Part shown: positions 2,013 through 60,959 of the stretch, piece after piece
How positions within the stretch are numbered: position 1 is the stretch's first letter
Layout: the number at the start of each line of letters is the position of its first letter
DNA from: a virus
Virus record (IMG/VR): IMGVR_UViG_3300023174_005338
Coordinates: 273,120 to 337,119 of that record
Length of the DNA: 64,000 nucleotides
Reading direction: 5' to 3' (one strand)
Notes under the pieces: generated by a model
What the model was told of the DNA's origin: nothing
The model's input: only the letters and a program-made list of their open reading frames with translations
Database searches by the model: none
Made by a program: the position numbers and the translations under genes

Positions 2013-2047
2013 AATTATGAATACATTTGTTATCAAGGAAATTTAAA

Positions 2048-4797: not shown

Positions 4798-6561
4798 ATG
4801 ATTCAAATAAAAAATCTCACAGTAAAAAACTTTATGAGCGTGGGCAACGCCACGCAAGGCATCGACTTTGATCGACGCGACTTGACACTTGTGTTGGGCG
4901 AGAACTTGGATCTTGGTGGCGACGGAAGCCGCAACGGCACAGGTAAAACTACTATAATCAATGCTCTTAGCTACAGCTTGTATGGGCAAGCATTAAGTAA
5001 CATCCGCAAGGACAACTTAGTCAACAAAACCAACAACAAAAACATGTTGGTCAGTTTGGATTTCAGTGTGGACGGCAAAGATTACCGGATTGAACGAGGC
5101 CGTAAACCCAACCTGCTGAGATTCTTTGTAAACAATCAAGAGCAAGTGGTCACAGACGAAGCACAAGGCGACAGCCGAGAAACACAGGATGCCATTGAAC
5201 ATACCTTGGGCCTCAGTCACGACATGTTCAAACACATTCTGGCACTCAACACTTACACAGAACCGTTTCTGAGTCTCAAAGCCACAGATCAAAGAACCAT
5301 CATTGAACAACTCCTGGGCATAACCATGCTGAGCGAGCGTGCCGATCGAATCAAAGAACACAACAGATCCACCAAAGAAGCCATACAGCAAGAAGAATTC
5401 CGTATTCGAGCTGTTCAAGAAGCCAATAAAAGGATAGAAGAACAGATTGAGGCTTTACGACGTAGACAGACATTATGGGTGACTAAACATGAAGAAGAGA
5501 TTACCAAACTCGAAACCGCGCTCGAAGAACTCAAAAAGATTGACATTGAAGCCGAGATTGCGGCCCACAAGGCGCACAAAGTATGGGATCAGAAGCGCAA
5601 GGACCTTAACGACCTGGCTGGACAGATCTCCCGCACGAAGCTTGATAAGGACCGCGAGAACAAAAGCATTGAGAAGCTTGGCAAGGAGATTGCGACACTT
5701 GAAGATCACACATGTCACACTTGCGGGCAGGCTTTCCACGACCATAAGCACCAACAGGTCCTGGCGGGTAAGCAGGCTGATCTGGCAAGAGCGCGAGAAG
5801 CGTGCCAAGAACATACACAGCTCCTTTCAGAACTCGAGACTGCCCACACAGCCTTGGGCACGTTAGGGCGACCACCTGCTATGTTCTATGATAGTGAAGA
5901 GGATGCCATACAACATCGTAGCAGCATGGCTGCCTTGCAAACTCAATTGACAAACAAACAGGCCGAAACAGATCCCTACGGCGAGCAGATAGCGGACATG
6001 CAAGGTCAGGCTTTGCAGGTAGTAAGCTATGACACACTCAATGAGCTGACCAGACTTCAGGAACATCAAGACTTCTTGCTCAAACTTTTGACCAGCAAGG
6101 ATTCATTCATACGCAAAAAAATCATTGAACAGAATTTGAGTTATTTGAATGCCAGACTCACACACTACCTGGATAGGATTGGCCTGCCGCATACCGTGGT
6201 GTTCCAGAACGATTTGACTGTGAGCATCGAGGAGCTGGGTCGTGAGCTGGACTTTGACAATTTGAGTCGTGGCGAACGCAACAGATTGATCTTGAGCATG
6301 AGCTGGGCCTTTCGTGATGTGTTTGAAAGCCTATACCAGCCCATCAATGTGCTGTTCATAGACGAAATGATTGATTCGGGCCTGGACACACAGGGTGTAG
6401 AAAATGCTCTTGCGTTGCTGAAGCACATGAGCCGCGAACGGCACAAGAGTATTTGGTTGGTCAGCCACAGAGATGAGCTAGCCGGAAGAGTTGAAAACAT
6501 ACTCCGAGTGGTCAAAGAAGGCGGCTTTACCAGTTACAACACGGATGTAGAAATTGCGTAG
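4798..6561 (+). CDS. 46: gp46-like recombination endonuclease subunit (Rad50/SbcC-like ATPase)
   Basis: 587 residues with SMC-type architecture: Walker A GTGKTT (K50) in the N-terminal ATPase lobe, a coiled-coil region around residues 190-430 interrupted by the zinc-hook CHTC (C306, C309), and a C-terminal lobe with signature LSRGERNRL and Walker B VLFIDEMIDSG (D522/E523). In T4, gp46 with gp47 resects DNA ends for recombination-dependent replication and packaging, and degrades host DNA. Length is close to T4 gp46. It lies downstream of the metabolic cassette instead of next to gp47. Its stop overlaps the following radical SAM gene. Confidence 0.95.
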   Translation: MIQIKNLTVKNFMSVGNATQGIDFDRRDLTLVLGENLDLGGDGSRNGTGKTTIINALSYSLYGQALSNIRKDNLVNKTNNKNMLVSLDFSVDGKDYRIERGRKPNLLRFFVNNQEQVVTDEAQGDSRETQDAIEHTLGLSHDMFKHILALNTYTEPFLSLKATDQRTIIEQLLGITMLSERADRIKEHNRSTKEAIQQEEFRIRAVQEANKRIEEQIEALRRRQTLWVTKHEEEITKLETALEELKKIDIEAEIAAHKAHKVWDQKRKDLNDLAGQISRTKLDKDRENKSIEKLGKEIATLEDHTCHTCGQAFHDHKHQQVLAGKQADLARAREACQEHTQLLSELETAHTALGTLGRPPAMFYDSEEDAIQHRSSMAALQTQLTNKQAETDPYGEQIADMQGQALQVVSYDTLNELTRLQEHQDFLLKLLTSKDSFIRKKIIEQNLSYLNARLTHYLDRIGLPHTVVFQNDLTVSIEELGRELDFDNLSRGERNRLILSMSWAFRDVFESLYQPINVLFIDEMIDSGLDTQGVENALALLKHMSRERHKSIWLVSHRDELAGRVENILRVVKEGGFTSYNTDVEIA

Positions 6562-7420
6562 AATACGAGTCTTACACATTGAACCCACCGACGTTTGTCA
6601 GGCTGCATGCCCGTTGTGTGCCCGAGAGACTGACCCAAACTTTAATAAAAGTTTAAAGCATCATCTCAGAGTAGAGCACATACAAAAACATTTTTCAGAA
6701 CAAGTAATTTCCAAACTGGATAAAATGTTCATGTGTGGCAATTATGGTGATCCGGCTGCAGGCTACTATACCATGGACATCTACAACCACTTTAGAAAAG
6801 TCAATCCAGAAATTGTGTTGGGTATGAACACCAATGGTGCTGTGCAAAGCACGTTCTTTTGGCATGCGTTGGGACGATTGTTCAATCAGCCCAAAGATTA
6901 TTGTGTGTTTAGCATAGACGGATTAGAGGATACCAATCACGTTTATCGTAAAAATGTCAATTGGGCCAAGCTAATGAGCAACGTTCAAGCCTACATTGCC
7001 GCAGGTGGAAGTGCCCATTGGGACATGCTGGTGTACAAACACAATCAACATCAAGTGGATGCTTGCCAGCAACTGGCTCGTGACATGGGATTCAAGTGGT
7101 TCCGTGCCAAGGTCAGCAAGCGTGGATTCACTGATCATTTAGAATTTCCCATCGGGTGGCAACCGCCTGCGGTCAAGGCGGGGCCCATCAAATGCCATGT
7201 GATTAATGAAAAAAGCATGTACATTGATGCGCAAGGTCGTGCCAGTGCCTGTTGCTGGCTTGGTGCCACGCAACAAGATTTTGTCAAAGATGATTTGGCA
7301 ACTGTAAAATTAACTTGGAAAACAGACACACCCAATCCGGTGTGTGTCAGTGCTTGTTCCACAAACAAAAATAAAACCGTATTCCAAGACCAATGGCAAC
7401 GCGAGGTACAACTGTGTTAG
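6554..7420 (+). CDS. Radical SAM protein (first of a tandem pair)
   Basis: 288 residues beginning at TTG; an in-frame stop lies two codons upstream and the next ATG falls after the cluster motif, so TTG is forced. The motif CQAACPLC (CX3CX2C) binds the [4Fe-4S] cluster that cleaves S-adenosylmethionine. A second cysteine-rich part at the C-terminus (MYIDAQGRASACCW, then CVSACS) looks like a SPASM/twitch auxiliary-cluster domain. Such proteins modify peptides or small molecules; the substrate is unknown. The start overlaps the end of gp46 by eight bases and the end overlaps the next radical SAM gene by 28 bases, so the three are probably co-translated. Confidence 0.8.
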   Translation: MRRIRVLHIEPTDVCQAACPLCARETDPNFNKSLKHHLRVEHIQKHFSEQVISKLDKMFMCGNYGDPAAGYYTMDIYNHFRKVNPEIVLGMNTNGAVQSTFFWHALGRLFNQPKDYCVFSIDGLEDTNHVYRKNVNWAKLMSNVQAYIAAGGSAHWDMLVYKHNQHQVDACQQLARDMGFKWFRAKVSKRGFTDHLEFPIGWQPPAVKAGPIKCHVINEKSMYIDAQGRASACCWLGATQQDFVKDDLATVKLTWKTDTPNPVCVSACSTNKNKTVFQDQWQREVQLC

Positions 7421-8424
7421 CCACCTGGCATTTTCATATCGAAATCAGTTCAAAGTGTACCCTGCGTTGCCCACGCTGTGCCAGACAAGAGGTTCCCGAC
7501 AGTTTAGTAAACACTGAACTGGATTTAGAATTTTTTAAAAGAAACTTTACCGCAGAGTTTGTTCTTGACAATGTAGAAAAGATCACATTTTGTGGTGACG
7601 ACGGTGATCCTATCTATGCTCACGACCTTATACCAGTGATTCAATACATCAAGTCAATCAAACCTGTTGAGATTGTAGTTGTCACAAATGGATCACACAA
7701 GAAACCAGAATGGTGGCGTGAACTTGGTGGCGTGCTTAGTGAGCAAGATACTGTACACTTTAGCATCGACGGTTGGGACTACCCAAGCAACAATCTGTAT
7801 CGTGTCAACAGTGATTTCAACAGTATTGTCGACGGAATCACTGCACTACGATCAACCTCTGAGTGCCACCTTGTGTGGGCTGCCATTGTCTTTGGGTTCA
7901 ATGAACACCAACTGGGCGCTATGAAAAATCATGCACGTTTGCTAGATATGGATGTATTTCAACTTACCAAGAGCACCAAGTTTGGCTCCGTTTATCTCTC
8001 CTACGGTCCAATCGATGAGCTAGAGCCCAGCCGGCCGTTTGTCAGCAGTTCACACAGATTTGAGAGAGATGTTACACCGATAAGCTCGCGTGGACTCAAT
8101 TCACAGACAAACACCAAGAACATACAATTATACAAATCTGCTGTAGAGATCAACGGTGTAAAACCCCTGTGTGAAATTGGCAACAAAGGACTTTATATTG
8201 ACGCCCAAGGTAGATTATTCCCTTGCTGTTGGGTAGCAAACCGCTACAGTCACAATTCAGAATGGAAAGCTATTGCTAACAAATTTGATTTGAATCGTCG
8301 CACACTGGCCGACGCTGTAACTGACGATTTTTGGTCAACAACATTTAAAACCTTTGGGTGGCAAGAGTGCCAGACTAAGTGTGTAGCGAGCAGGGTAAAT
8401 GAAAAATATGCAACTGAGTGGTAA
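7393..8424 (+). CDS. Radical SAM protein (second of a tandem pair)
   Basis: 343 residues. The N-terminal CTLRCPRC is a radical SAM CX3CX2C motif. The C-terminal half contains LYIDAQGRLFPCCW, closely matching the equivalent segment of the preceding gene, so the two are probably diverged duplicates with SPASM/twitch-type auxiliary sites. The middle part, including FCGDDGDPIYAHDLIPVIQYI and FSIDGWD, follows the usual radical SAM barrel pattern. It overlaps the upstream gene by 28 bases. No candidate peptide substrate with a clear leader was recognised nearby. Function is unassigned beyond the enzyme class. Confidence 0.8.
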   Translation: MATRGTTVLATWHFHIEISSKCTLRCPRCARQEVPDSLVNTELDLEFFKRNFTAEFVLDNVEKITFCGDDGDPIYAHDLIPVIQYIKSIKPVEIVVVTNGSHKKPEWWRELGGVLSEQDTVHFSIDGWDYPSNNLYRVNSDFNSIVDGITALRSTSECHLVWAAIVFGFNEHQLGAMKNHARLLDMDVFQLTKSTKFGSVYLSYGPIDELEPSRPFVSSSHRFERDVTPISSRGLNSQTNTKNIQLYKSAVEINGVKPLCEIGNKGLYIDAQGRLFPCCWVANRYSHNSEWKAIANKFDLNRRTLADAVTDDFWSTTFKTFGWQECQTKCVASRVNEKYATEW

Positions 8425-15875: not shown

Positions 15876-16736
15876 ATGACATCGAAATTTGAACAGTTGA
15901 TCGAATACGTGATCAACGACGAAGAGGCGAAAGCCAAAGAACTTTTCCACGATATCGTGGTAGAAAAGTCACGTGAAATCTACGAAAACCTCATGAGCGA
16001 AGAAGAGCTTGATGAAGCCGAGTCCACAGACAAAGAAGACGAAAAAGCTGAAAAAGCCGGCGAAAAAGTCACCAAGGACATCGAATACGACGACAAAAAA
16101 GATCGTAAAGAGCGCATGGACGAGGAAGAAGACGAAGAGATGGATGAAGGCATGATGGGCGGCGACGCCAGTGATGACTTGATCGACGACGTTGAAGCCG
16201 AAGAAACCGGCATGGAAATGGCCGAAGGCGAAGGCGAAGAAGATTTGGAAGATCGCGTAGTTGACTTGGAAGACAAGCTCGACGAACTCATGGCCGAATT
16301 TGAATCACTTATGGGTGACAACGGCGACTCAGTAGGTGACGAAATGGGCGGTGACGACTTAGAAATGGACGACACAGAAACAGCCGATTTTGACATGGGC
16401 GACGGTGAAGAAGAAGAGTCTGATTCAGAAGAAATTGAAATGGGCATGATGGAAGCTATTAACCTAGCCAAAGCTCCTGCTCCTGTAACGTCTGAGCCAG
16501 CCGGTACTAACACCAAAAGCACAAACGCCAACAACAGTGGCGCCAAAGGTGCAATGGCACACCCTGTAAAAATGACAGGTGACACAGCAGAAGGTCGCCC
16601 AGCTCCTAAAGCTGGTGAGTTGATCGGTAAAGTGCAAAACAGCGTAGGCGGTGACAAGAAAATGACACCGGCTACCAAGCCACATCTTGCACAAGCCACT
16701 GGTGTAAACACAAAAACTCCATTTCCCAAGGCATAA
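15876..16736 (+). CDS. 67: gp67-like prohead core protein
   Basis: 286 residues from an ATG with a strong AAGGAG site. The first 40 residues (FEQLIEYVINDEEAKAKELFHDIVVEKSREIYENLM) resemble the start of T4 gp67, and the rest is extremely acidic (long runs of D/E with G and M) as in that core protein. A less acidic, K/A/P-rich tail follows from about residue 190. It is longer than T4 gp67 (80 residues) and may combine several core functions. gp67 is part of the scaffold core and is cut by gp21. Position between portal and protease agrees with T4. Confidence 0.75.
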   Translation: MTSKFEQLIEYVINDEEAKAKELFHDIVVEKSREIYENLMSEEELDEAESTDKEDEKAEKAGEKVTKDIEYDDKKDRKERMDEEEDEEMDEGMMGGDASDDLIDDVEAEETGMEMAEGEGEEDLEDRVVDLEDKLDELMAEFESLMGDNGDSVGDEMGGDDLEMDDTETADFDMGDGEEEESDSEEIEMGMMEAINLAKAPAPVTSEPAGTNTKSTNANNSGAKGAMAHPVKMTGDTAEGRPAPKAGELIGKVQNSVGGDKKMTPATKPHLAQATGVNTKTPFPKA

Positions 16737-16745
16737 TAGTTAGAT

Positions 16746-17384
16746 ATGGCTCGCTATCTAAGAGAACATCTAAGCTTCACTCAGGCAAGAGCAGAAATCT
16801 TGCTTGAGGAAGCTGCGGATGGATCTGGCAAGAACCTGTACCTCAAAGGCATCTGCATTGAGGGCGGTGTTCGCAACGCCAACGAACGAGTATATCCTGT
16901 CAACGAAATAGCCAAGGCAGTAGACACCATCAACGAACAGATCAAGACTGGTCACAGTGTCCTGGGTGAAGTAGATCACCCCGAAGACTTGAAGATCAAT
17001 CTGGATCGTGTTAGTCACATGATCTGCAATATGTGGATGGATGGCCCTGCTGGATATGGAAAATTAAAGATATTGCCCACACCCATGGGCGAGCTGGTCA
17101 AAACCATGCTCACTAGCGGTGTGAAATTAGGTGTTAGCAGTCGTGGCAGCGGTAACGTCAACGACGCCAACGGACATGTCAGTGATTTTGAAATTGTCAC
17201 TGTAGATGTGGTCGCTCAGCCCAGCGCTCCCAATGCATATCCCACAGCAATCTACGAAGGCCTGTTAAATCATGCCGGCGGAGCCAGACTGTTGGAAATG
17301 TTCAAGGACCCAGCCAAGAGCGGCAAAGCACAGAGATACGTAAAAAGCGAAGTAATGCGCCTGATACGTGGTCTCAAAATCTAG
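16746..17384 (+). CDS. 21: Prohead core protease gp21
   Basis: 212 residues, same length as T4 gp21. The conserved GEVDHPE supplies the catalytic histidine (about residue 79), GVSSRGSG the catalytic serine (about residue 138), and DFEIVTVDVVAQPSAPNA the third conserved block of the herpesvirus-like protease fold. The enzyme cleaves scaffold, core and capsid proteins after short (I/L)xE motifs during maturation and processes itself. Ten bases separate it from the core gene and eleven from gp22. Confidence 0.96.
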   Translation: MARYLREHLSFTQARAEILLEEAADGSGKNLYLKGICIEGGVRNANERVYPVNEIAKAVDTINEQIKTGHSVLGEVDHPEDLKINLDRVSHMICNMWMDGPAGYGKLKILPTPMGELVKTMLTSGVKLGVSSRGSGNVNDANGHVSDFEIVTVDVVAQPSAPNAYPTAIYEGLLNHAGGARLLEMFKDPAKSGKAQRYVKSEVMRLIRGLKI

Positions 17385-17395
17385 GAGAAATAAGC

Positions 17396-18496
17396 ATGCA
17401 AGATGCTATTAAACCGTTACTAGATAGCGAACTATTAAGCGAAGAAGCTCAGCAAGAAATCACTGAGGCTTGGGAAACCAAGTTAAATGAAGCCCGCGAA
17501 CAAGTACGTGCAGAACTCCGCGAAGAGTTTGCACAACGCTATGAGCATGACAAACAAGTGATGGTGGAAGCCCTGGATCGTATGGTAACAGAAGGTCTCA
17601 CCGCAGAAGTCCAAGCAGTGCAAGCCGAAAAGCAAGCACTGGCCGAAGACCGTGTCAAATTCCAAGCTCGTATCAAAGAAGATGCTACCAAGTTTAACAA
17701 CTTCATGATCACCAAATTAGCTGAAGAAATTGGCGAACTGCGCCGAGATCGCAAGACACACAACGAAGGAATAGAGAAGTTAGAATCATTCGTTGTTCAC
17801 GCTCTTGCACGCGAGATTCAAGAATTTGCCGAAGACAAACAAGATGTGGTCAACACAAAAGTGCGTCTAGTGGCCGAAGCTCGCACCAAGTTGGAACAAT
17901 TGAAAAGCCGTTTCGTCGCAGAATCAGCCCGTAAAATGTCCAACGCTGTTAGCCAACATCTCAAGGCTGAACTCAACCAACTCAAAGAAGATATCCAAGT
18001 TGCTCGCGAGAACAATTTTGGACGCAGAATCTTTGAAGCATACGCCACTGAATTTGGTGCAACTCATCTCAATGAGAAAGCCGAAGTGCGTAAACTACAT
18101 GACATCATTGCAAGCAAAGATGCCAAGTTGGCTGAAGCCGTCCAATTCACCCAGAAAGCCAAAGTTCTGGTTGAATCAAAAGAACGCGAGATCCGCATGA
18201 TACGTGAATCCAATCAACGCGAAAGCGCCATGGAAGAACTGCTCGCTCCTCTCAATGAAGAGAAGCGCGAAATCATGAAGAACTTGCTCGAAAGCGTACA
18301 GACAAGTCGTTTGTCCAATGCTTTTGAAAAGTATCTACCAGCTGTACTAGCCGAAGGTACTGTGAAAGCCCGTAAAGTGATCACAGAAACTGTTAGCGTG
18401 GCCACTGGCGATAAATCTGCCCGCAGTCCAGATGCAGATCAAGCGGCTGACAATGTCAGCAACGTGATCGATCTCAAGCGTTTGGCAGGGCTGTAA
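17396..18496 (+). CDS. 22: Prohead scaffolding core protein gp22
   Basis: 366 residues, almost entirely charged coiled-coil helix (long stretches of E, K, R, A, L), as expected for the major scaffold gp22. Its place between gp21 and gp23 is invariant in T4-like phages. Several (L/I)xE sites for the prohead protease can be seen. The scaffold directs head shape and is degraded to peptides on maturation. An AGGAG site overlapping the gp21 stop precedes the ATG. Confidence 0.93.
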   Translation: MQDAIKPLLDSELLSEEAQQEITEAWETKLNEAREQVRAELREEFAQRYEHDKQVMVEALDRMVTEGLTAEVQAVQAEKQALAEDRVKFQARIKEDATKFNNFMITKLAEEIGELRRDRKTHNEGIEKLESFVVHALAREIQEFAEDKQDVVNTKVRLVAEARTKLEQLKSRFVAESARKMSNAVSQHLKAELNQLKEDIQVARENNFGRRIFEAYATEFGATHLNEKAEVRKLHDIIASKDAKLAEAVQFTQKAKVLVESKEREIRMIRESNQRESAMEELLAPLNEEKREIMKNLLESVQTSRLSNAFEKYLPAVLAEGTVKARKVITETVSVATGDKSARSPDADQAADNVSNVIDLKRLAGL

Positions 18497-18523: not shown

Positions 18524-19720
18524 ATGTCACAAGAATTATTAGAAGGCCGTTGGGACGAAACCAAAGATGCACTCTTGGAAGGTTTATCCGGATCCAAGCG
18601 TAGCTCAATGAGTGTAATCCTTGAAAATACCAAGAAGTACTTGCGTGAGAACGCTTCTTCTGGTTCCACAGTATCTGGCAACATCGCTACATTAAACCGT
18701 GTGATTCTGCCAGTGATCCGTCGTGTTATGCCAACCGTTATCGCTAACGAGTTGGTTGGTGTTCAACCAATGACAGGTCCTGTAGGTCAAATCCACACAT
18801 TACGTGTTCGCTATGCACAGAGCTTGAATGACACATCAGCAGCCGCCACAAGCGTTGCAGCTGGTTCTGAAGCTTTGAGCCCATTCACAATCGCTACAGC
18901 TTACTCTACTGTACCTCAAGCTACCGCAACAGCTACAGGTTACACAGGTAACAACACAGCGACCATGGAAGGCACAGGCGGTAAGCAAATTTCCGTACAG
19001 ATCTTGAAGCAAGCTGTTGAAGCTAAGACACGCAAACTCCAAGCTCGTTGGACATTTGAATCTGCACAAGACGCACAAGCCATGCATGGCATTGACGTTG
19101 AAGCAGAAATCATGGCTGCTCTTGCACAAGAGATCACAGCTGAGATCGACCAAGAAATCCTGTTGAGCTTGAGCACATTGGCTGCTACAGAGTTTACATA
19201 CAACCAAGCTACTGTGTCTGGTACAGCAACATTCGTTGGTGATGAGCATGCCGCTTTGGCAGTGTTGATCAACCGCGTTGCTAACTTGATCGCTCAGCGT
19301 ACACGTCGTGGCGCTGGTAACTTTGCTGTTGTATCTCCAGCAAGTTTGACAGTGTTGCAATCTGCAACAACATCAGCTTTTGCTCGCACAACAGAAGGCA
19401 CATTTGAAGCACCCACAAACACCAAGTTTGTTGGTACACTCAATGGCGCAATGCGTGTGTTCTGCAACAGCTACGCCGCTGACACAGCTAGTGTGTTGGT
19501 AGGTTATAAGGGTACGAGCGAGGCAGATGCTGCCGCGTTCTATTGCCCATATATTCCTTTAATGAGCAGCGGTGTTGTTCTTGATCCATCAACATTCGAA
19601 CCAGTCGTATCATTTATGACGAGATATGGCTTCGTAGAATTGACAAATACTGCAAGTTCCTTCGGTAACGCTGCAGATTATGTGGGAGAAATAGCAGTAC
19701 AAAATTTATCATTCTCATGA
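18524..19720 (+). CDS. 23: Major capsid protein gp23
   Basis: 398 residues with a strong AAGGAG site. The segments TLNRVILPVIRRVMPTVIAN and ELVGVQPMTGPVGQIHTLR are diagnostic of gp23. It is notably shorter than T4 gp23 (521), so insertions in the T4 protein are absent. Likely prohead-protease sites are VILE (ending at residue 34) and LRE (ending at 42), giving a mature protein near 360 residues. Base use differs visibly from neighbours (many GCT, GTT and ACA codons), typical of a highly expressed gene. A terminator follows. Confidence 0.96.
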   Translation: MSQELLEGRWDETKDALLEGLSGSKRSSMSVILENTKKYLRENASSGSTVSGNIATLNRVILPVIRRVMPTVIANELVGVQPMTGPVGQIHTLRVRYAQSLNDTSAAATSVAAGSEALSPFTIATAYSTVPQATATATGYTGNNTATMEGTGGKQISVQILKQAVEAKTRKLQARWTFESAQDAQAMHGIDVEAEIMAALAQEITAEIDQEILLSLSTLAATEFTYNQATVSGTATFVGDEHAALAVLINRVANLIAQRTRRGAGNFAVVSPASLTVLQSATTSAFARTTEGTFEAPTNTKFVGTLNGAMRVFCNSYAADTASVLVGYKGTSEADAAAFYCPYIPLMSSGVVLDPSTFEPVVSFMTRYGFVELTNTASSFGNAADYVGEIAVQNLSFS

Positions 19721-19795: not shown

Positions 19796-19829
19796 GTTGA
19801 TTACAAGTTTAGGTAAAAGTGAGGTTTAT

Positions 19830-19837
19830 CATAAATA
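19830..19837 (+). promoter_or_regulatory. Late promoter before HNH endonuclease gene
   Basis: CATAAATA, five bases before the ATG at 19843. Confidence 0.5.
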
Positions 19838-19842
19838 ATATT

Positions 19843-20601
19843 ATGAACAAATACAAAACTTGGTATAACAACATTACTGAAAACGCCAAAACTCGTATAT
19901 CGGATGGATATACGGAACGGCATCACATTATCCCTCGAAGCCTAGGCGGATCTGACAGTAAAGAAAACTTAGTTGATCTCACAGCCAGAGAACATTTCAT
20001 ATGTCATTGGTTACTGATTAAAATGCATACTGGCGAATCAAAAGCTAAAATGATTTATGCTCTAAATGGTATGAAACGAAATGGCAGATTTAACGAAAGA
20101 TATGAAACCAAAATAACAAGTAGAGTTTATGAAAAGCTCAAACAAGAATTTTCTCTTATACACTCTGCCAACATGAAAGGTCGCACTGCCCACAATAAAG
20201 GTGTTCCTGCCACAGAAGAACAAAAAGAAAAAAATAGGCTGGCCGCAAAAGGTAGGAAGATGAGTCCAGAATCAATCGCGAAAGGTGTAGCCAAGCGCCG
20301 CGGACAAAAAAGAACAGAAGAGCAAAAGGCAAAAATTGCAAAATCAGTAAAAGAAGCACTTGCTAAAAACCCAAGAGGCCCAATGAGCGATGAACATAAG
20401 TTAAAAAGGTCATTAGCATCATTGGGTAAACCAAAGCCAGCTGGGCATACTGAAAGAAGACTTGCGACTCTTGCCAAGCAGTTGGCAGAAGGCACGCATT
20501 ATAGTCAACAAAAAAAGACCTGTCCACACTGCGGAGTAGTTGCAAGTAAAGGTCCTTACACAAGGTATCACGGACCTCACTGCCAGGCCCTCAAACCTTA
20601 A
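19843..20601 (+). CDS. HNH homing endonuclease with NUMOD3 repeats
   Basis: 252 residues from ATG 19843; a GTG at 19819 lies upstream of the late promoter and is less likely. HHIIPRSLGGSDSKENLVDLT, then EHFICHWLL, forms an HNH nuclease core. It is followed by NUMOD3-type DNA-binding segments (HNKGVPATEEQKEKNRLA, KRTEEQKAKIAKSVKEA) and a C-terminal CPHCG...HGPHC zinc-finger-like end. It is freestanding, placed just after the gp23 terminator, a typical position for mobile endonucleases near conserved capsid genes. It meets the minus-strand glycosyltransferase tail to tail, with a four-base overlap of stop codons. Confidence 0.9.
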   Translation: MNKYKTWYNNITENAKTRISDGYTERHHIIPRSLGGSDSKENLVDLTAREHFICHWLLIKMHTGESKAKMIYALNGMKRNGRFNERYETKITSRVYEKLKQEFSLIHSANMKGRTAHNKGVPATEEQKEKNRLAAKGRKMSPESIAKGVAKRRGQKRTEEQKAKIAKSVKEALAKNPRGPMSDEHKLKRSLASLGKPKPAGHTERRLATLAKQLAEGTHYSQQKKTCPHCGVVASKGPYTRYHGPHCQALKP

Positions 20602-48009: not shown

Positions 48010-48618
48010 ATGAAAAATTTTCAAGAATACCTGGCCGAAAGCCAAAGAACCTACAATTATCGCGTGAAAATCGTGGGTGATGTAGAACCTGCTTTTGTAA
48101 AGGCACTGGAAGAAAAGCTGAAACAGTTTGACCCAGTCAAGGTGTCGGCTGTGAAGAAAACTCCTATCCAGGCCAAGCCCGCAGACTTTCCTGCTGCCGC
48201 CAATGAAAGCGTCAGCTCCATGGATTGTGAATTCCGTTATCCAGCCATTGAGCCACAGATCCAACAGATTGCTCAACTCTTAGGACTTGATCCAAACCGT
48301 ATCCGTTTGTTGACCACACCCTATGAAGAAAGTGTAGATGTGGAACGTGAGCGTGTGGAAGAAGAAAACAAAGACCTGCTGACCGACACTGACTACCCTG
48401 CTCCCAACGCAGAACAAAAAGCACTCAGCAAAGATTATTCGGCACCATACGATGAGCATGCTGTGTTGAAGAATGCCTACCGCAGTGACTTTACTGTAGC
48501 CGGCGGCAAGACACCACCTGCCCGGACCACAAATGATTTACCAATGGGCACATCAAGCCCAATGACCAAAGTAAAACGCCCACCACGCCCTGCCACTGGT
48601 GCCAACCCAAGAGGATAA
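48010..48618 (+). CDS. Putative internal head protein with capsid-targeting N-terminus
   Basis: 202 residues. The start MKNFQEYLAES is strikingly like the capsid-targeting sequence of T4 internal proteins (MKTYQEFIAEA), with an LAE site where the gp21 prohead protease would cut after residue 9. The body has an ACT/ferredoxin-like beta-alpha pattern (YRVKIVGDVEPAFVKALEEKL) and a basic, disordered tail. It may be packaged into the head and injected; this is inference from the N-terminus. Confidence 0.65.
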   Translation: MKNFQEYLAESQRTYNYRVKIVGDVEPAFVKALEEKLKQFDPVKVSAVKKTPIQAKPADFPAAANESVSSMDCEFRYPAIEPQIQQIAQLLGLDPNRIRLLTTPYEESVDVERERVEEENKDLLTDTDYPAPNAEQKALSKDYSAPYDEHAVLKNAYRSDFTVAGGKTPPARTTNDLPMGTSSPMTKVKRPPRPATGANPRG

Positions 48619-48622
48619 CAGC

Positions 48623-50551
48623 ATGACATTTTTTTACGACCTAAACAAGAAGTTGGCTGACCTGGCCAAGAAACAAGACCTCAACGAGAGCGTTCAACCT
48701 GCTGTGGCCGAAGGCTCAACTGGAGACTATTCAGCCAAAAAGGCTGCGGCAGGCAAAGACATTGGCAAGCCAGGAAAAATGTTTAGCAAGATCGCAAAGA
48801 GTGCTGGCAAGCGTTATGGCAGCAAAGAAAGTGGCGAGCGAGTTGCCGGCGCTGTGTTGGCCAAACTGCGTGCCAAAGAAAGTGTAGAAGAGTCAGACAT
48901 GGATGAGAGTGCTCTACAAGCATACCTAGGCAAAAAGAAATATGGCGAGACCGGCATGAAGGCCCTGCAGAAGGCCGGACGTGAAGGTGCCAGCAAAGAG
49001 ACCATGGCTCGTATCCGTGCCAAGCACGACAAAATGGATGAAGAAATAGCCGACGAAGGCAACGCATTCACAGCCAAACTTAAAAGCACACCCAAGGGTG
49101 GCGAGTTTGAACTGGACGGCAAAAAATATCGAGACACCAGCAACATCGAAGAAAAGAAAGAAACCAAAAAATCACGCAGTGCTGGCACAGCATTTGATCC
49201 AGAAGTGGCCAAATCTATGTTTGCCAGCAAAGATGAACACCCAAGATATGATGTCAAAGACACGGGCTACAGCAAGCGTTATACAAGAAAAGAAGAGCCT
49301 GCGGCAGACAAGGATGATGCAGAAGTCAGTGATCAACCCAAGAAGAAAGGTCGCCCAAAATCTGCAAAACCAAAAGATCAAGAGACTGTGACCAAAGGAA
49401 GTTGGAAATATAAAATGGTCAATGGCAAGCGTGTGAAAAAAGAAAAGACCGACGAAGATCTTGACACTGATGGCGTCATGATGACACGTCCGTCAAATAT
49501 GAGCAGTGAAGGCATTGAAAGCATTGCCTTGGTAGACAAAGGTGAATATGACCGCGAAGGCGACATGGCCAAGGAACAGTTGCACACCATCAAACTGGCT
49601 GCACGAGAACTGGCCAGCATACTCAGCGATGATGAGAACCTGCCAGAGTGGGTTCAATCAAAGATCACCAAGGCCATGGACTACATTGACACAGCACGTG
49701 ACTACATGATAGCAACTAAGGCCGATGGTGACATGCAACCCGTGGCAGAAAAAGCCGTCAGTCAAGCACAACGCAGAGCCGCTGGCATAGCACATGCCGC
49801 TCAAAAGGGTGAGATACCCAAGAGTGAATTGCGTGGCGCATCAAAAGAAATGGCCAAGATGCCCAAAGGTGAACTGCACAAGTTTGCCGCGACCAAAGAA
49901 AAAGGTCTGCCAAAGAAAGTCAAAGAAGCCGGCAAACCCGATTTCCTGGATCTAGACAAAGATGGAAACAAAGCAGAACCCATGAAACAGGCTGCCAAAC
50001 AAGCCAAGAGCAAGACGAAAGATGAAGTTGAAGAAACAACCGTAGCCGGATCAGTGGCCACAGCACCCACTGGTGGTAAAGGCAAAGGTGGCATGCAGTT
50101 TGGCAAAGGTGTGTATGAAAGCATGGACTCCAAGTTCCGTCAAGCACTCACGGAAGGCATGAACATTAGTGTGAACATGAACACTGGACCAGATGGTCAG
50201 CCCAGCAAGAATATCACGGTCAGTGCCGACGGTGAAGATGCCGAAGCTTTGGCTGCATTGTTGAAGATGGCCGGCATCAGCGGTCACAGCGACAGTGAAA
50301 GTTGTGGCACCTGTGGCAAAGCACCCTGTGGTTGCGAAGAGCTGGATGAGAACAGCCCAGACTGGCCCACAAACACAGAAACGTCAGACAATGCCATGCA
50401 GTATTCAGGTGGCCTAAACGGTCCCAAGAGCACAGGGCAAACTACCGTTCCTGTCGTTGCCAGCCAACTACGTCGTCAAGTTTCAATGGAAGAGTCAGTA
50501 AAACTTGAGCGCGATTTGTTTAGACTTTATCAAAACTACAAAGCCCAATGA
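48623..50551 (+). CDS. Large charged virion protein, possibly internal
   Basis: 642 residues from ATG 48623 (the frame opens earlier inside the previous gene). Very rich in K, E, A and D and mostly disordered or helical, typical of packaged or scaffold-like phage proteins. Recognisable features: FLDLDKDGNKAEPMKQA, an acidic DxDxDG loop frequent in marine T4-like phage proteins; EALAALLKMAGISG; and a cysteine cluster CGTCGKAPCGC near residue 565. Numerous (L/I/V)xE sites might be cut by gp21. The next gene starts in its stop codon. Confidence 0.65.
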   Translation: MTFFYDLNKKLADLAKKQDLNESVQPAVAEGSTGDYSAKKAAAGKDIGKPGKMFSKIAKSAGKRYGSKESGERVAGAVLAKLRAKESVEESDMDESALQAYLGKKKYGETGMKALQKAGREGASKETMARIRAKHDKMDEEIADEGNAFTAKLKSTPKGGEFELDGKKYRDTSNIEEKKETKKSRSAGTAFDPEVAKSMFASKDEHPRYDVKDTGYSKRYTRKEEPAADKDDAEVSDQPKKKGRPKSAKPKDQETVTKGSWKYKMVNGKRVKKEKTDEDLDTDGVMMTRPSNMSSEGIESIALVDKGEYDREGDMAKEQLHTIKLAARELASILSDDENLPEWVQSKITKAMDYIDTARDYMIATKADGDMQPVAEKAVSQAQRRAAGIAHAAQKGEIPKSELRGASKEMAKMPKGELHKFAATKEKGLPKKVKEAGKPDFLDLDKDGNKAEPMKQAAKQAKSKTKDEVEETTVAGSVATAPTGGKGKGGMQFGKGVYESMDSKFRQALTEGMNISVNMNTGPDGQPSKNITVSADGEDAEALAALLKMAGISGHSDSESCGTCGKAPCGCEELDENSPDWPTNTETSDNAMQYSGGLNGPKSTGQTTVPVVASQLRRQVSMEESVKLERDLFRLYQNYKAQ

Positions 50552-51294
50552 AATCGTTAAAAGACTACATCACAGAAAGCGAACAATGGATGAACACACC
50601 TGCAGCAGGTGATGTCTTTGCGTTTGAACTGCCTGATGAAGTCTTGTGTGAGACCTACATCATTGAGGTGGCCGACGATTGTATCCTACTAGATTCTACA
50701 CCAGAGATCAATGCGGCCTTGAGTGAATGGGCCACTCTTGAAGACACCGACGAAGGCGATTCTGGTGTGATCATGGAAACCATGGGCTACGGAACATTGG
50801 TGGGCGAAGGTTCCATGAAAAAAGAAATGTATGCGTCTGCACTACGCATGAGTCTGGAACAGTTCAAAGACCGCTATGGTGACGAAGACTGGATTGAAGA
50901 TTTTTGGCGTACATCCACCGGTGAGCCAGAAATCTCAAAAGATGTGGATGAAGATCAAGATGCCGCTGTGGTAGCAGGCAAAGAAGCTGCCATTGATTCT
51001 GCACAACAACTGGCCACCGACGAAGCCAAGTATCAAGGCCGTGAGGTTCAGTTAAACAAAAAGATGCCAGGAGATCAGGCCAAATTTAAAGTCTATGTCA
51101 AAGATCCTGCCACAGGCAATGTTAAAAAAGTGAACTTTGGCCACGGCGGTAAGACGGCCAAGAGACTAGGTCAAAAAACCATGCGTATTAGAAAGTCTAA
51201 TCCTGCAGCTAGAAAAAGTTTTAGAGCAAGACATAACTGTGACAATCCGGGCAGCAAATTAAAAGCCAGATATTGGAGTTGTAAGAACTGGTGA
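50548..51294 (+). CDS. Putative internal head protein with capsid-targeting N-terminus
   Basis: 248 residues beginning MKSLKDYITESEQW, with ITE at residues 8-10 as a likely gp21 cleavage site, again like T4 internal proteins. The C-terminal 80 residues form a separate basic unit (KFKVYVKDPATGNVKKVNFGHGG, then RKSFRARHNCDNPGSKLKARYWSCKNW), common in marine phage proteins and with the look of a small nucleic-acid-binding or zinc domain. The ATG overlaps the preceding stop by four bases. Confidence 0.7.
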   Translation: MKSLKDYITESEQWMNTPAAGDVFAFELPDEVLCETYIIEVADDCILLDSTPEINAALSEWATLEDTDEGDSGVIMETMGYGTLVGEGSMKKEMYASALRMSLEQFKDRYGDEDWIEDFWRTSTGEPEISKDVDEDQDAAVVAGKEAAIDSAQQLATDEAKYQGREVQLNKKMPGDQAKFKVYVKDPATGNVKKVNFGHGGKTAKRLGQKTMRIRKSNPAARKSFRARHNCDNPGSKLKARYWSCKNW

Positions 51295-51308
51295 CGTCAA
51301 TAAGTCGT

Positions 51309-51316
51309 GCTAAATA
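51309..51316 (+). promoter_or_regulatory. Late promoter of GIY-YIG endonuclease gene
   Basis: GCTAAATA, four bases before ATG 51321. Confidence 0.5.
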
Positions 51317-51320
51317 GAGC

Positions 51321-51953
51321 ATGACGTCTATAATCTACAAAATCACAAATCAACTTACAAACAAGTCCTACATAGGTTGGACCAGTCAATCTTTTGATGC
51401 AAGATGGTGCCAACACAAAAAGCTGGCACAAAAAAATCAAGATAATCGACCATTTTACAATGCTATAAGAAAATATGGAATAGATTGCTGGACTCAAGAA
51501 ATTCTTGAAGAAGTGTGTGACAAAAATTTAGCAAAACAAAAAGAAATAGAATACATCAAACTGTTTGAATCCTATGACAAGGGATATAATGCAACCAGAG
51601 GAGGAGATGGCAACAACGACATAAAAATGTCAGCTGAATCTAATTTGGCTCGTAGCCTGGCACTTAAAGGAAAACCAAAAAATTACGTCCGAGCGCCAGG
51701 AAAAAAACAGTCAGCAGAAAGTCGTAAAAAGATATCTGATGCACACAAGGGCATGAAAAAACCCTGGGTAAAATGGACTCAAGAACAAATTGTTAAACGT
51801 GCTATGACACGCCGAGCCCTTAGTGAACAACAATACAATCAAATTCATGAGTTAAGAAAAACCGGTTTGAGAATTTGTGACATTGCAAAACAAGTTAATA
51901 CCAGTTCTGACCTAGTCAAAAAATGGCTCAACAAGTCTTGGAATTTGAGCTAA
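51321..51953 (+). CDS. GIY-YIG homing endonuclease with NUMOD and HTH
   Basis: 210 residues. IIYKITNQLTNKSYIGWT is a GIY-YIG nuclease start, with the catalytic arginine in FDARWCQH and the conserved glutamate in KQKEIEYI. A NUMOD3-like stretch (SAESRKKISDAHKGMKKPW) follows, then a C-terminal helix-turn-helix (LRICDIAKQVNTSSDLVKKWL). Freestanding, inserted between two structural genes. Lower GC and different codon use than its neighbours fit recent arrival. Confidence 0.9.
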   Translation: MTSIIYKITNQLTNKSYIGWTSQSFDARWCQHKKLAQKNQDNRPFYNAIRKYGIDCWTQEILEEVCDKNLAKQKEIEYIKLFESYDKGYNATRGGDGNNDIKMSAESNLARSLALKGKPKNYVRAPGKKQSAESRKKISDAHKGMKKPWVKWTQEQIVKRAMTRRALSEQQYNQIHELRKTGLRICDIAKQVNTSSDLVKKWLNKSWNLS

Positions 51954-51956
51954 ATA
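51949..51956 (+). promoter_or_regulatory. Late promoter after endonuclease gene
   Basis: GCTAAATA over the endonuclease stop, 18 bases before ATG 51975 with AAAAAGGG between; it restores expression of the downstream structural genes. Confidence 0.5.
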
Positions 51957-51974
51957 ACAAAAAGGGATTCTATA

Positions 51975-52268
51975 ATGGCCGCAAATGTATACACCACACT
52001 AGCTAACACAACTGTTTACACAGACAAACTACAGATTGCCACGGCTGCCAATGCAGTGACTTATCAGGTCTATGCCACAGCCTTGGGAAGCGCCGCCGCC
52101 ATTGGCAATATCTACACTGCACCAATCACGATTCCAGCCAACACAGTGTTTGAAGTGTATTCAGGTGCTGGAAACAAAGTCACAGTGGTAGGCTCGCCAT
52201 TTACAGCATTAGAATTGGGCACACAAAGTTCTGCACAATACAGCGTGTTCAACAGTGCGGGACAGTGA
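51975..52268 (+). CDS. Small beta-rich structural protein
   Basis: 97 residues, all-beta pattern (VTYQVYATALGS, IGNIYTAPITIPANTVFEVYSGAGNKVTVVG). Similar in style and position to the 105-residue protein at 23938. Probably a virion component. The next gene begins two bases after its stop. Confidence 0.6.
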   Translation: MAANVYTTLANTTVYTDKLQIATAANAVTYQVYATALGSAAAIGNIYTAPITIPANTVFEVYSGAGNKVTVVGSPFTALELGTQSSAQYSVFNSAGQ

Positions 52269-52270
52269 TC

Positions 52271-52642
52271 ATGCGTGCCCGGGAGTTCCTGGCTGAGAAA
52301 CGCACAGGTCAAATAGGCAATCGACGCCAGGCAGCCACAGTGGGTCTACACAAGTTCCGTGACACAGGTGGGTATGATCGTACCTATGAACTCAACCGTG
52401 TTATGATGGCCGTGGCCTGCGCAGATGGGCACACTCCCTTGGATATGGACACAGAAAGCTGGGCAGGCCGTTACAACACAGCACATCCTTATACCGATGT
52501 GGAAGATGCCATGTTACGCCAGGCCCTAAAAGCTACTGGCAGCGAACACAAAGATTTCAATCAAGGAGATCTGGACAGTGGTGAACTTGACAGCACCAAT
52601 GTGATCAGTCCTGTGAAATCCTTCAAAGGATACCCCAGATGA
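52271..52642 (+). CDS. MRAREF-type small protein 1 (putative packaged protein)
   Basis: 123 residues from ATG 52271. The N-terminus MRAREFLAEK carries an LAE site like the T4 capsid-targeting sequence, and the C-terminus ISPVKSFKGYPR is almost identical to the end of the next protein. The middle differs (GGYDRTYELNRVMMAVACADG). The pair looks like a duplicated set with conserved ends and diverged cores. Its end overlaps the next start (ATGA). Confidence 0.65.
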   Translation: MRAREFLAEKRTGQIGNRRQAATVGLHKFRDTGGYDRTYELNRVMMAVACADGHTPLDMDTESWAGRYNTAHPYTDVEDAMLRQALKATGSEHKDFNQGDLDSGELDSTNVISPVKSFKGYPR

Positions 52643-53031
52643 GAGCCCGAGAGTTCATCACAGAACAACATGATCTGCCACCTGAGATAGCCGATCCCTT
52701 GCGCTATACCTATATCCTGCCTGGACTCAGTGCCGCAGATCCCTACCGCAACTACAGATTTGGCGTGGCCATGGCCCGTGCCAGAAGTGATCGCGGAACA
52801 GATCACGACCAAATAGATCAATTTATGCCATCATGGCAACCAGAAACTGCTTTTGGTGAGCACGGTGTTATTTCAGGCTTTGATGCCAACGTGGATCCTG
52901 TGATTGACTTGGCCTTGAAAATGACCAAGACACCAGGCGGTAAAAAATTAGTCAGCTCGGCTGCCAGCCAAGAACCCGCCAGTGTGGACAAACAAAGTCC
53001 GATCAAAGCATTCAAAGGATATCCTAGATAA
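52639..53031 (+). CDS. MRAREF-type small protein 2 (putative packaged protein)
   Basis: 130 residues, MRAREFITEQ at the start (ITE cleavage-like site) and QSPIKAFKGYPR at the end. The central part has YRNYRFGVAMARARSD. Only the two ends are clearly shared with the preceding gene, suggesting that targeting signals are conserved while the payload varies. Unknown activity. Its stop touches the next start. Confidence 0.65.
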   Translation: MRAREFITEQHDLPPEIADPLRYTYILPGLSAADPYRNYRFGVAMARARSDRGTDHDQIDQFMPSWQPETAFGEHGVISGFDANVDPVIDLALKMTKTPGGKKLVSSAASQEPASVDKQSPIKAFKGYPR

Positions 53032-57438: not shown

Positions 57439-58152
57439 ATGAAAAAATTACTCTTAGTATTACTATTCACACCACTCGCGGCCCTGGCACAGATCAATGC
57501 TCAATGTCCACAGTTCACAGTCAATGGCACACCCGAATATCAAGCCCAACCTGGCGATCAGGAACTTTGTAAACAAAACTATGCCGTGATCCATCGTTGC
57601 GGTGTCAAGGCTCCGGTGGCAGTGTTTGAACACTTGACCGTTGCGGCCATGACCGGTCCTGCTAAAAGAAAAGATGATTTCCGTCCAGATCCGCAAGTGC
57701 ATGAACAGTGCCGTGCCAGTCTAGCTGACTATGCCACCGTAGGAAAGACGCACGATCGTGGTCATATGAGTCCTGCTGCCAACAACAGTCAAAACGAACA
57801 AATCATGAGCGAAAGCTTCTACTTGAGCAACATGCTGGCACAAGTTGCCAACAACAATCGTGGTGCCTGGAGACTGTTAGAAGCCGCCGAACGCCAATGG
57901 GCCATGCAACCCGGCACAGATTTCTACATCATATCCGGAGGTATCTTTGATCCCGGTCATCCGGTCACAGGCAACGGCCTGGGCATACCCACTAGACTCT
58001 ACAAGATCATCATAGAAAAGAACAGCCGCCAGGTGCAGGCATACCTCATGCCCAACGCACCTATTAGCCCAGCTACCAGCTGGCCACAGTATCAGACCAC
58101 CATGACCGAAATCGAGCGTGCCACAGGCATGCGATTCAACCTGGGACAATGA
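57439..58152 (+). CDS. Secreted DNA/RNA non-specific endonuclease (NUC family)
   Basis: 237 residues. Residues 1-20 are a clear signal peptide (MKKLLLVLLFTPLAALAQ). KTHDRGHMSPAANNS contains the DRGH active-site motif with the catalytic histidine, and FYLSNMLAQVANNNRGAWRLLE supplies the metal-binding asparagine and the following conserved segment. Related enzymes degrade any DNA or RNA outside the cytoplasm. A phage copy could digest extracellular DNA, clear biofilm or damage DNA of competing phages in the periplasm. Signal peptides are uncommon on phage nucleases. The next gene starts in its stop codon. Confidence 0.9.
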   Translation: MKKLLLVLLFTPLAALAQINAQCPQFTVNGTPEYQAQPGDQELCKQNYAVIHRCGVKAPVAVFEHLTVAAMTGPAKRKDDFRPDPQVHEQCRASLADYATVGKTHDRGHMSPAANNSQNEQIMSESFYLSNMLAQVANNNRGAWRLLEAAERQWAMQPGTDFYIISGGIFDPGHPVTGNGLGIPTRLYKIIIEKNSRQVQAYLMPNAPISPATSWPQYQTTMTEIERATGMRFNLGQ

Positions 58153-58346: not shown

Positions 58347-59483
58347 ATGAACTCATTTTATTGTGCGGCTCCCTGGCGAGGCCTGCACATCAATCCACGC
58401 GGTGATGTCAAACCCTGCTGTGCAGGAAATCCCAACATGCTGGGCAATTTAAACAACAAAACCATTGAAGAAATTATAAACGGGCCCAAGCTGAAAGAAA
58501 TCAGATCAGCATTGCGACAAGGCCAGTATCATGAATTTTGCCGAGGGTGCCAAGTACGGGAAGCTCATGGCGGCGACAGTGAACGGACTTGGCATAATAC
58601 CATAAATGATTCATTTGATTCCACACAAGCTGGATTAGAATACGAATATCCTACCCTGTTAGACATACGTTGGAACAGTACCTGTAATCTTAGTTGTAAC
58701 TATTGCGGCCCAGCAGACAGTTCAAAATGGGCTGCTTTGAAAAAAATGCCCATAAACAACAACACTAGAAATTATTATTTAGAAGTTTGTGAATTTATTG
58801 AAAACAACAATCAACATGTTAAAGAAGTTGCACTAGTTGGCGGAGAACCCCTGCTGTTGCCGGAAAACGAACGCCTGCTAGATGCAATACCCGCAGACAC
58901 TGTTATCACTGTTATTACCAATCTTAGTAATAATTTAGAAACAAATAAAGTTTTTCAAAAACTAGCACAACGTCCACGAGTGGGCTGGAGTATGAGTTTT
59001 GAAAATATAGGCCCAAAGTTTGAGTATGTGAGATATGGCGCCAACTGGGAATTACAGTTGCACAATCTTGATCTGGTCCAGTCTCTAATTCGTGATCGAG
59101 GACATTGGGGCGGCATACATGCAGTGTACAATCTTTACAATGCCACGCACTTGGTTGAATTTAAAAACTTTGCTCACGAACGCGGATTATCTATCAAATG
59201 GCAACCATTGGGTACACCGTCGGCATTGGATACAAAAAACTATGGACAAGAAATTGCTGTGATGGCCGCTACAGAAATTCAACGCATGTTTGACACTTGC
59301 AACATAGACGATGAAGAACGTGTGTTGTTTGGCACAGCACTTGCACACTATCAATCGATTGTTGATACCAAGCCAGAAAAATTAGAAGAATTAAAACGTT
59401 TTGTTGATGAAATTGAACAATACCATCCAGATCAACAAGGAAAGTTTCATGAACTATGGCCAGAAATAAGTAGTTTACTATGA
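58347..59483 (+). CDS. Radical SAM protein with N-terminal SPASM/twitch-like part
   Basis: 378 residues. The N-terminus FYCAAPWRGLHINPRGDVKPCCAG, followed by FCRGCQ, resembles an auxiliary-cluster (twitch/SPASM) domain, here placed first. The radical SAM motif CNLSCNYC (CX3CX2C) comes at about residue 110, with GGEPLLLPENERLLD after it. This domain order is seen in marine phage radical SAM proteins. Substrate unknown. It is tightly flanked by a small basic protein and the terminase gene (four-base overlap). Confidence 0.85.
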   Translation: MNSFYCAAPWRGLHINPRGDVKPCCAGNPNMLGNLNNKTIEEIINGPKLKEIRSALRQGQYHEFCRGCQVREAHGGDSERTWHNTINDSFDSTQAGLEYEYPTLLDIRWNSTCNLSCNYCGPADSSKWAALKKMPINNNTRNYYLEVCEFIENNNQHVKEVALVGGEPLLLPENERLLDAIPADTVITVITNLSNNLETNKVFQKLAQRPRVGWSMSFENIGPKFEYVRYGANWELQLHNLDLVQSLIRDRGHWGGIHAVYNLYNATHLVEFKNFAHERGLSIKWQPLGTPSALDTKNYGQEIAVMAATEIQRMFDTCNIDDEERVLFGTALAHYQSIVDTKPEKLEELKRFVDEIEQYHPDQQGKFHELWPEISSLL

Positions 59484-60419: not shown

Positions 60420-60959
60420 ATGAAAAAACATAAACATCATGTTATTCCTAAACACATGGGCGGATCTGACGACCCATCTAATCTAATAGAACTTACTGTA
60501 GAAGAACATGCAGAAGCACATCGATTATTATACGAAACACACGGACACACTCAAGACAAAGTAGCCTGGCTTGGACTTGCAGGCATCATGCCCTACGCTG
60601 AAATTATATACACTTTGCTATCAGAAGGCAAAAAAGGAAACAAAAATCCAATGTTTGGAAAGCCGGCACCCAACAGAGGTATTAAACGCCCAGGTGTAGG
60701 CGGCCGTAAAAAGGGCACTAAATGGTCAGCTGAAGAACGAGCAACCAAAGAAAAAATAAGATCTACTTCAGAATACAAAGAAAAAATGGCAACTGTATAT
60801 TCAGATCCGGTTCGAAATGCCAATATTAGTAAAAATAACAAGGGTAAAATTGGAGCCGCAACCGGTAAGGCTTGGTATAACAACGGCATTGAAGAAAAAT
60901 ATTTTGTAGTTGATCAACAACCTAAAGGATTCTTTCGTGGCAGACTTACTAGAAAATAA
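60420..60959 (+). CDS. HNH homing endonuclease between split-intein halves
   Basis: 179 residues. KHHVIPKHMGGSDDPSNLIELTVEEHAEAHRLL is an HNH nuclease core, followed by NUMOD3-type segments (KNPMFGKPAPNRGIKRPG, KWSAEERATKEKI) and a basic end. It lies exactly between the two terminase halves, the arrangement of 'fractured genes' in which a freestanding endonuclease sits between split-intein pieces and may mobilise them. Its end overlaps the C-terminal intein gene by 23 bases. Confidence 0.9.
   Translation: MKKHKHHVIPKHMGGSDDPSNLIELTVEEHAEAHRLLYETHGHTQDKVAWLGLAGIMPYAEIIYTLLSEGKKGNKNPMFGKPAPNRGIKRPGVGGRKKGTKWSAEERATKEKIRSTSEYKEKMATVYSDPVRNANISKNNKGKIGAATGKAWYNNGIEEKYFVVDQQPKGFFRGRLTRK

Follow-up and report, generated by a model that had tools for sequence, protein, structure and literature searches.

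Do four proteins of an uncultured phage carry an N-terminal address that takes them into the phage head, and if so, are they packaged to act on the host? The question is raised by a 64,000-nucleotide stretch of viral DNA (hereafter the window), which covers positions 273,120 to 337,119, the final 64 kb, of the 337,119-base uncultured virus record IMGVR_UViG_3300023174_005338 in IMG/VR. An earlier note on this DNA had described four of its proteins, here designated A to D, as a family with N-termini like those of the phage T4 internal proteins, cleavable by the prohead protease gp21 after (I/L)xE, and had predicted that they are packaged, possibly injected, effectors. All four of these N-termini were found in open reading frames (ORFs) on the plus strand: protein A (48010..48618, 202 amino acids) begins MKNFQEYLAES, protein B (50548..51294, 248 amino acids) begins MKSLKDYITES, protein C (52271..52642, 123 amino acids) begins MRAREFLAEK, and protein D (52639..53031, 130 amino acids) begins MRAREFITEQ. 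The ORF listed for C opens at a GTG at 52265, whereas MRAREF starts from an ATG at 52271. The term family applies to C and D, which are paralogs with 27% identity and a common C-terminal tail, but not to the whole set, as A, B, and C/D form three mutually unrelated families once the N-terminal peptide is removed. We consider it likely that A to D are internal head proteins bearing a T4-type capsid-targeting peptide cut by gp21. The cleavable N-termini described in the note are borne out by the conservation pattern of the peptides, the maturation site of the major capsid protein gp23, the presence of A orthologs in virions, and a tail that C and D have in common with a prohead core protein.

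The predicted targeting peptides (tags), with a slash marking the cut, are MKNFQEYLAE/S in A (48010..48039), MKSLKDYITE/S in B (50548..50577), MRAREFLAE/K in C (52271..52297), and MRAREFITE/Q in D (52639..52665), all on the plus strand. The motif is kept by 147 of 147 A, 25 of 29 B, 101 of 106 C, and 122 of 127 D homologs, counts that carry a residual bias towards the tag, as homologs were gathered by the mature part but some loci were fetched with patterns containing the N-terminus. The 147 A homologs (105 distinct) show almost no change at K2, F4, Y7, L8, E10, and S11, and variation at positions 3, 5, 6, and 9. The 19 distinct B homologs have K2, L4, Y7, [ILM]8, and E10 fixed, and in the distinct homologs of C (71) and D (88), R2, A3, E5, F6, [ILV]7, and E9 are fixed, with position 8 free and, in C, also position 4. 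The Glu preceding the cut (P1) shows little or no variation in any of the families, and the residue before it (P2) is variable. In T4 IPIII, targeting depends on residues 4 and 7 and processing on residues 8 and 10, an Asp at position 10 blocks processing but not targeting, and gp21 cuts after L/I-x-E (reviewed in PMC9026906). The position-by-position agreement with IPIII genetics provides the strongest single argument that the peptides would act as a packaging and cleavage signal.

The motif M[KR]x1-5[FYW][ILV]xE stands at the start of 4 of the 50 genes in the window, compared with 0.022 predicted by its frequency inside the same proteins (binomial P about 8e-9, which is only indicative because the limits of the motif were fixed after the four had been seen), and none of 2000 shuffles of the N-termini reached four motif genes. 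The DNA form of the short motif gave 29 matches in nine related records, the present one included, and the reversed pattern gave none. A search of the whole genome for the N-terminal pattern, as had been proposed with the original prediction, was run with two DNA patterns and returned one more strict in-frame case, a 62-residue protein beginning MRASEFIVE (G000:C1:148624). A relaxed in-frame case in the whole record, MRYQEILE at the start of a 356-residue protein (G000:C1:153159), belongs with the relaxed patterns (MxxxEIxE) that were held separate from the main claim. Across approximately 158 loci of relatives, all strict-motif ORFs fell into the families of the window, apart from one further protein present in two copies and a lone ORF.

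The protease that would make the cut is encoded in the window, as the earlier note had stated, within a T4-type head module. The portal gene (from 13720, phrog_213) is followed on the plus strand by genes for an acidic prohead core protein between portal and gp21 (15876..16736, gp67-like by position and composition), gp21 (16746..17384, matching phrog_207 with an expect value (E) of 4.5e-56 and PF03420, Peptidase_S77, with E 1e-25), a gp22-like scaffold located between gp21 and gp23 (17396..18496, approximately 22 (I/L/V)xE sites), and gp23 (18524..19720, PF07068, E 1e-96). The A to D region lies approximately 30 kb beyond this module, after the sheath, tube, and gp4 genes. Judged by gp23 (60–65% identity), the closest cultured relatives are jumbo phages of Vibrio, Sinorhizobium, and Pseudomonas (PA5oct and MIJ3) and the RaK2-like group; a megablast search of the A to D region against cultured phages gave zero matches.

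The cleavage motif of the tags recurs in the head proteins themselves. The predicted maturation site of gp23, TKKYLRE/NASSGST (TKKYLRE42/NASSGSTVSGNIATLN), has an invariant Y/F-L-x-E with variable x in 60 distinct homologs, among which [YF]LxE/N is likewise invariant. The N-terminus of gp21, MARYLRE/H, also fits the motif, and MARYLxE/H is found in nearly all homologs. Homologs in the family of 62–69-residue proteins that includes the fifth tagged protein of the record read MRAxEF[IV]xE/NASAGATGSGSIATV, and the best of them have 10–11 of 16 residues downstream of the cut in common with the N-terminal arm of mature gp23, suggesting that these proteins consist of the tag followed by a copy of a natural gp21 product. 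A gp23-arm-like segment, VEE/TTVAGSVATA, also occurs inside the untagged, basic 642-residue protein encoded next to A (48623..50551, plus strand, ATG about 48623), which has a DUF3008 domain and several (I/L/V)xE sites, and its positional counterpart in PA5oct has a similar segment, VEE/TASAGASSAGGIASVA. The 642-residue protein may be a core protein that is cut into pieces. In the region G000:C1:148624-149300 (L005 1501-2119), the gene of the 62-residue protein is immediately followed by a Dps/ferritin-like gene (PF00210, E 6e-21; phrog_3636, DNA binding protein), whose product is a candidate DNA-protecting protein.

A second connection to the prohead is found at the other end of C and D, which terminate in SxEPxxVxxxSP[IV]xxFKGYPR. 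Their tails, STNVISPVKSFKGYPR in C (52592..52639, plus strand) and SVDKQSPIKAFKGYPR in D (52981..53028, plus strand), contain the motif [ND][TKV]x[ST]P[ILVMF] near the C-terminus, as does the acidic core protein, which ends in GVNTKTPFPKA. When 4700 ORFs of jumbo phage loci were searched for this motif near the C-terminus, 218 matches were obtained, consisting of 145 C/D proteins, 71 core proteins, and 2 others; the reversed motif matched once in the same ORFs. The tail of the core protein is conserved among its homologs, and in PA5oct the sole match is the core protein EST35_0151, which ends in VDKESPLSKAPKK and was found in virions. In PA5oct, the [ND]xx[ST]P segment is present twice within a single protein. 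Proteins C and D thus resemble T4 internal proteins at one end and the core protein of their own prohead at the other, and we infer that the tail contacts the shell or the core.

For protein A, the evidence extends to virions. Protein A matches phrog_14802, a virion structural protein (E 2e-5), and the gene order sheath, tube, tube-like protein, gp4, small protein, A, and more virion genes is kept in PA5oct, CBB, GAP32, Vibrio 2.275, and Erwinia and Xanthomonas phages. An A profile found a match in six of seven cultured jumbo phage genomes, with E 6e-25 or better. Mass spectrometry detected A orthologs in the virions of CBB and PA5oct: CBB_210 was represented in CBB virions by 13 unique peptides that cover 60.5% of it (PMC5259590, Table 4), and EST35_0202 of PA5oct, together with the next gene, is annotated as a structural protein on the basis of electrospray ionization tandem mass spectrometry (ESI-MS/MS). 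Protein A is a virion protein in these two distant relatives. The phrog_14802 proteins, CBB_210, and EST35_0202 are alike in following gp4 and a small protein in the gene order, and have 22–27% identity to A. In a structure model of A, the tag forms a helix (residues 4–11) followed by a beta-alpha-beta core that is predicted with moderate confidence to be S6/ferredoxin-like; the likeness to ribosomal protein S6 (template modeling score to the query about 0.3) was rejected as too generic to assign a function. Searches of the Protein Data Bank (PDB) with A and C/D profiles gave no convincing match.

The orthologs of A differ at the predicted cut site. Glu10 and the hydrophobic residues 4, 7, and 8 are kept in CBB and GAP32 (both MNKLQKILTE/L) and in Vibrio 2.275 (MKDLNTILTE/S). 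Residue 10 is Asp in the Erwinia phages SNUABM_47 and Hallingskeid, Ala in XaC1, and Ser in Phosso, with hydrophobic residues 4 and 7 kept. Loss of the site in PA5oct came to light when a strict N-terminus search there returned one small ORF of unknown function and missed the A ortholog: this ortholog begins MKSFRDYYDAS, with Tyr8 and Ala10 and hydrophobic residues 4 and 7 kept, and is found in virions despite having no (I/L)xE.

A number of observations weigh against the proposal that A to D are gp21-processed head proteins. Because PA5oct A is in the virion without the site and E10 is lost in several other orthologs, cleavage of A would be lineage-specific, and for A alone the N-terminal helix may be mainly part of the fold. 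The (I/L/V)xE motif by itself is weak, and (I/L)xE alone is too common to be informative in the first residues of the PA5oct virion proteins. A few C/D homologs do not have the tag. The mature forms of A to D are neutral to acidic (isoelectric points 4.9–6.5), unlike the T4 internal proteins, which are small, basic, and poorly conserved; the 62-residue protein (isoelectric point 10.5) is the only basic one of the five tagged proteins. Finally, B, C, and D have no homolog, over the relevant region, in the phages with analyzed virions. In the seven cultured jumbo phages, a C/D profile gave no match and the short form of the address gave only five scattered matches with poorly tag-like peptides, so the expansion of the short form seems to belong to this uncultured group.

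If A to D are packaged, they could in principle be a set of effectors injected with the DNA to act on the host, which is the full reading of the earlier note; T4 Alt and IPI act in this manner. This explanation gains from the occurrence of the same address on candidate enzymes in related phages (described below) and from the T4 precedent of tagged proteins that are ejected (PMC9026906), but no recognizable enzyme domain was found in A to D. Protein A is conserved and syntenic in distant jumbo phages and D is universal in the clade, whereas T4 internal proteins are poorly conserved: in the loci with A and at least 5.2 kb of downstream sequence, D was present in 81 of 81, C in 67, and B in 20. 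Both A and D belong to the core gene set of the clade. The model of D, moreover, is of low confidence (pLDDT 66) and mostly disordered, with two helices. Given that A to D have no enzyme domain and are not basic, and that A and D are conserved, the four are likelier to be internal head or core proteins than effectors. The four may be injected, but the effector claim is not supported for these proteins, and we regard such a role as unlikely.

A second explanation, that the N-terminal peptide is a docking signal that stays uncleaved and that (I/L/V)xE is incidental, would account for the PA5oct ortholog found in virions without the site and for the loss of E10 in Phosso, XaC1, and the two Erwinia phages, and is in keeping with the effect of Asp10 in T4, which stops processing and not targeting (PMC9026906). 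We judge it quite improbable, as the P1 Glu is invariant beside a variable P2 residue in 105, 19, 71, and 88 distinct homologs of A to D, respectively, and the same site precedes the gp23-arm copy in the 62-residue family. That the shared N-terminus is unrelated to the head and is instead a translation-initiation or regulatory signature of late genes, or was spread by duplication, would fit the great uniformity of MRAxEF and the proteins that keep MRAxE without a cut site, but is highly implausible, given that amino acid positions are conserved while codons vary, that the tagged proteins have no relationship in their mature parts, that orthologs of A are found in virions, and that the C/D tail is common with the core protein.

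Our preferred explanation, packaging followed by gp21 cleavage, can be laid out as a sequence of steps. The first 9–10 residues would form a short amphipathic helix, the hydrophobic face of which would dock on the prohead core. By homology to T4, gp21, located in the same core, would cut after (I/L/V)xE and release the protein, which would then stay with the DNA inside the expanded head. For C and D, the tail in common with the core protein would probably make a second core contact. Protein A is a conserved head component, and A to D would more likely be internal proteins for assembly or DNA organization than effectors. The address itself is modular, in that it is also present on the basic 62-residue protein here and, in relatives, on likely delivered cargo that would be ejected.

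In related records, the same 9-residue peptide heads a variety of unrelated proteins encoded at scattered locations. After the first 12 residues were trimmed, the tagged proteins formed ten unrelated clusters, the three of the window included. Among them are GNAT acetyltransferases (PF00583 above cutoff in two of four homologous proteins) and a 213-residue protein that weakly matches the profile phrog_15752, host-transcription-inhibiting protein kinase (E 7e-4, residues 22–208), a description that we take to refer to T7 gp0.7. The kinase-like protein has tagged homologs in two further contigs, and Pfam and PDB searches with it gave no support. Further cargo consists of a ParB-like protein (weak match to a PHROG profile, E 1e-3), DUF6321 proteins, small basic Cys proteins, and others. 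A C-terminal module of the GNAT protein, which is basic and contains Cys, recurs in many environmental phage loci. In the 57 ORFs with the module and a closed 5' end, the strict tag was present in 21 and a relaxed tag in 11 more, and the shortest module ORFs (66–68 amino acids) consist of tag and module alone. In the record studied here, this basic ENFADGK module, which is joined to the tag in other phages, ends a 1857-codon ORF (G000:C1:140100-145670; L449). The GNAT, kinase-like, ParB-like, and Cys-rich basic proteins of relatives are effector candidates. We lean slightly towards the view that in a large group of uncultured jumbo phages a single gp21-cut address, M[KR]xxEF[ILV]xE/, loads variable enzymes and small basic Cys proteins into the head for delivery, with C-terminal tails (shared with the core, or Cys/basic) as a second address or DNA anchors, and with one small family mimicking the mature gp23 arm.

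The interval containing A to D encodes three proteins without the tag, namely the 642-residue protein, a NUMOD3-bearing GIY-YIG homing endonuclease (51321-51953) that is inserted between B and C/D, and a 97-residue protein (51975-52268). Elsewhere in the window, a bacterial-type metabolic cluster (486-4760), with all members above Pfam cutoffs, encodes an AMP-binding enzyme (486-2012), a TctC tripartite tricarboxylate receptor (about 2048-3025), and the alpha (3022-4290) and beta (4287-4760) subunits of a Rieske ring-hydroxylating dioxygenase. Three radical SAM proteins, one with SPASM, are encoded at 6554-8424 and 58347-59483, the first just below the Pfam cutoff, as are HNH-like ORFs after gp23 (19819-20601) and near the end of the window (60420-60959). 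A DNA/RNA non-specific endonuclease (57439-58152, PF01223, E 9e-38) has a signal-peptide-like N-terminus. A gene start similar to that of this endonuclease comes after the C/D pair in one related locus (L335), and two others (L110 and L112) encode a protein with a signal-peptide-like start of this kind fused to a C-terminal part like that of D, perhaps a product of recombination.

Because few giant T4-like phages have been cultured, little is known of what their heads contain and what they inject. Provided that the address is correct, the cargo of a given phage could be deduced from its genome and the proteins tested one at a time. The A homologs that have the docking residues but not the cleaved Glu would constitute a natural experiment that parts targeting from processing, and the MRAxEF version would give laboratories a compact tag with which to load phage heads.

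Several known systems bear comparison. The C-terminal part of B (RHNCDNPG..KARYWSC), which follows the targeting peptide and a unique middle, is the phrog_7595 module of marine phages. In the four cultured phages inspected, HTVC008M, Melnitz-3, immuto_13-6C, and CRP-901, this module stands alone or follows other N-terminal parts, and the exact tag of B occurs in none of them. A full-text literature search, which reached few subscription journals, found capsid targeting in jumbo phages only in papers on SPN3US and T4. The phiKZ-like giant phage SPN3US resembles the present system in being a jumbo phage with a head protease (gp245) that cuts after x-x-E and processes head proteins, including ejection proteins. 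It differs in its motif, A-x-E, and in its propeptides, mostly 111–254 residues long with two of 20–24 (PMC10052503), compared with the 9–10 residues and T4-type head described here.

The underlying principle is that of Black's T4 capsid-targeting sequence. As far as our tools show, the new features are the shortening of the tag to 9 residues, the presence of a second tail that the core protein also has, the copy of the gp23 arm, the enzyme cargo, and the extent of the system in uncultured jumbo phages. The likeness to the T4 sequence of IPI, IPII, IPIII, and Alt lies in the N-terminal 10 or so residues, with A and B having hydrophobic residues at 4 and 7, (I/L) at 8, and Glu10, in the presence of gp21, a gp22-like scaffold, and gp23 within one genome, and in the use of one address on unrelated proteins. 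Proteins C and D and the fifth protein differ in having the 9-residue form MRAxEF[ILV]xE, one residue shorter. Compared with the T4 internal proteins, A to D lack a basic character, A and D show conservation where the T4 proteins are hypervariable, and C and D have an additional C-terminal tail in common with the core protein. The cargo differs as well, with GNAT, kinase-like, and ParB-like proteins in the relatives of this phage in place of Alt.

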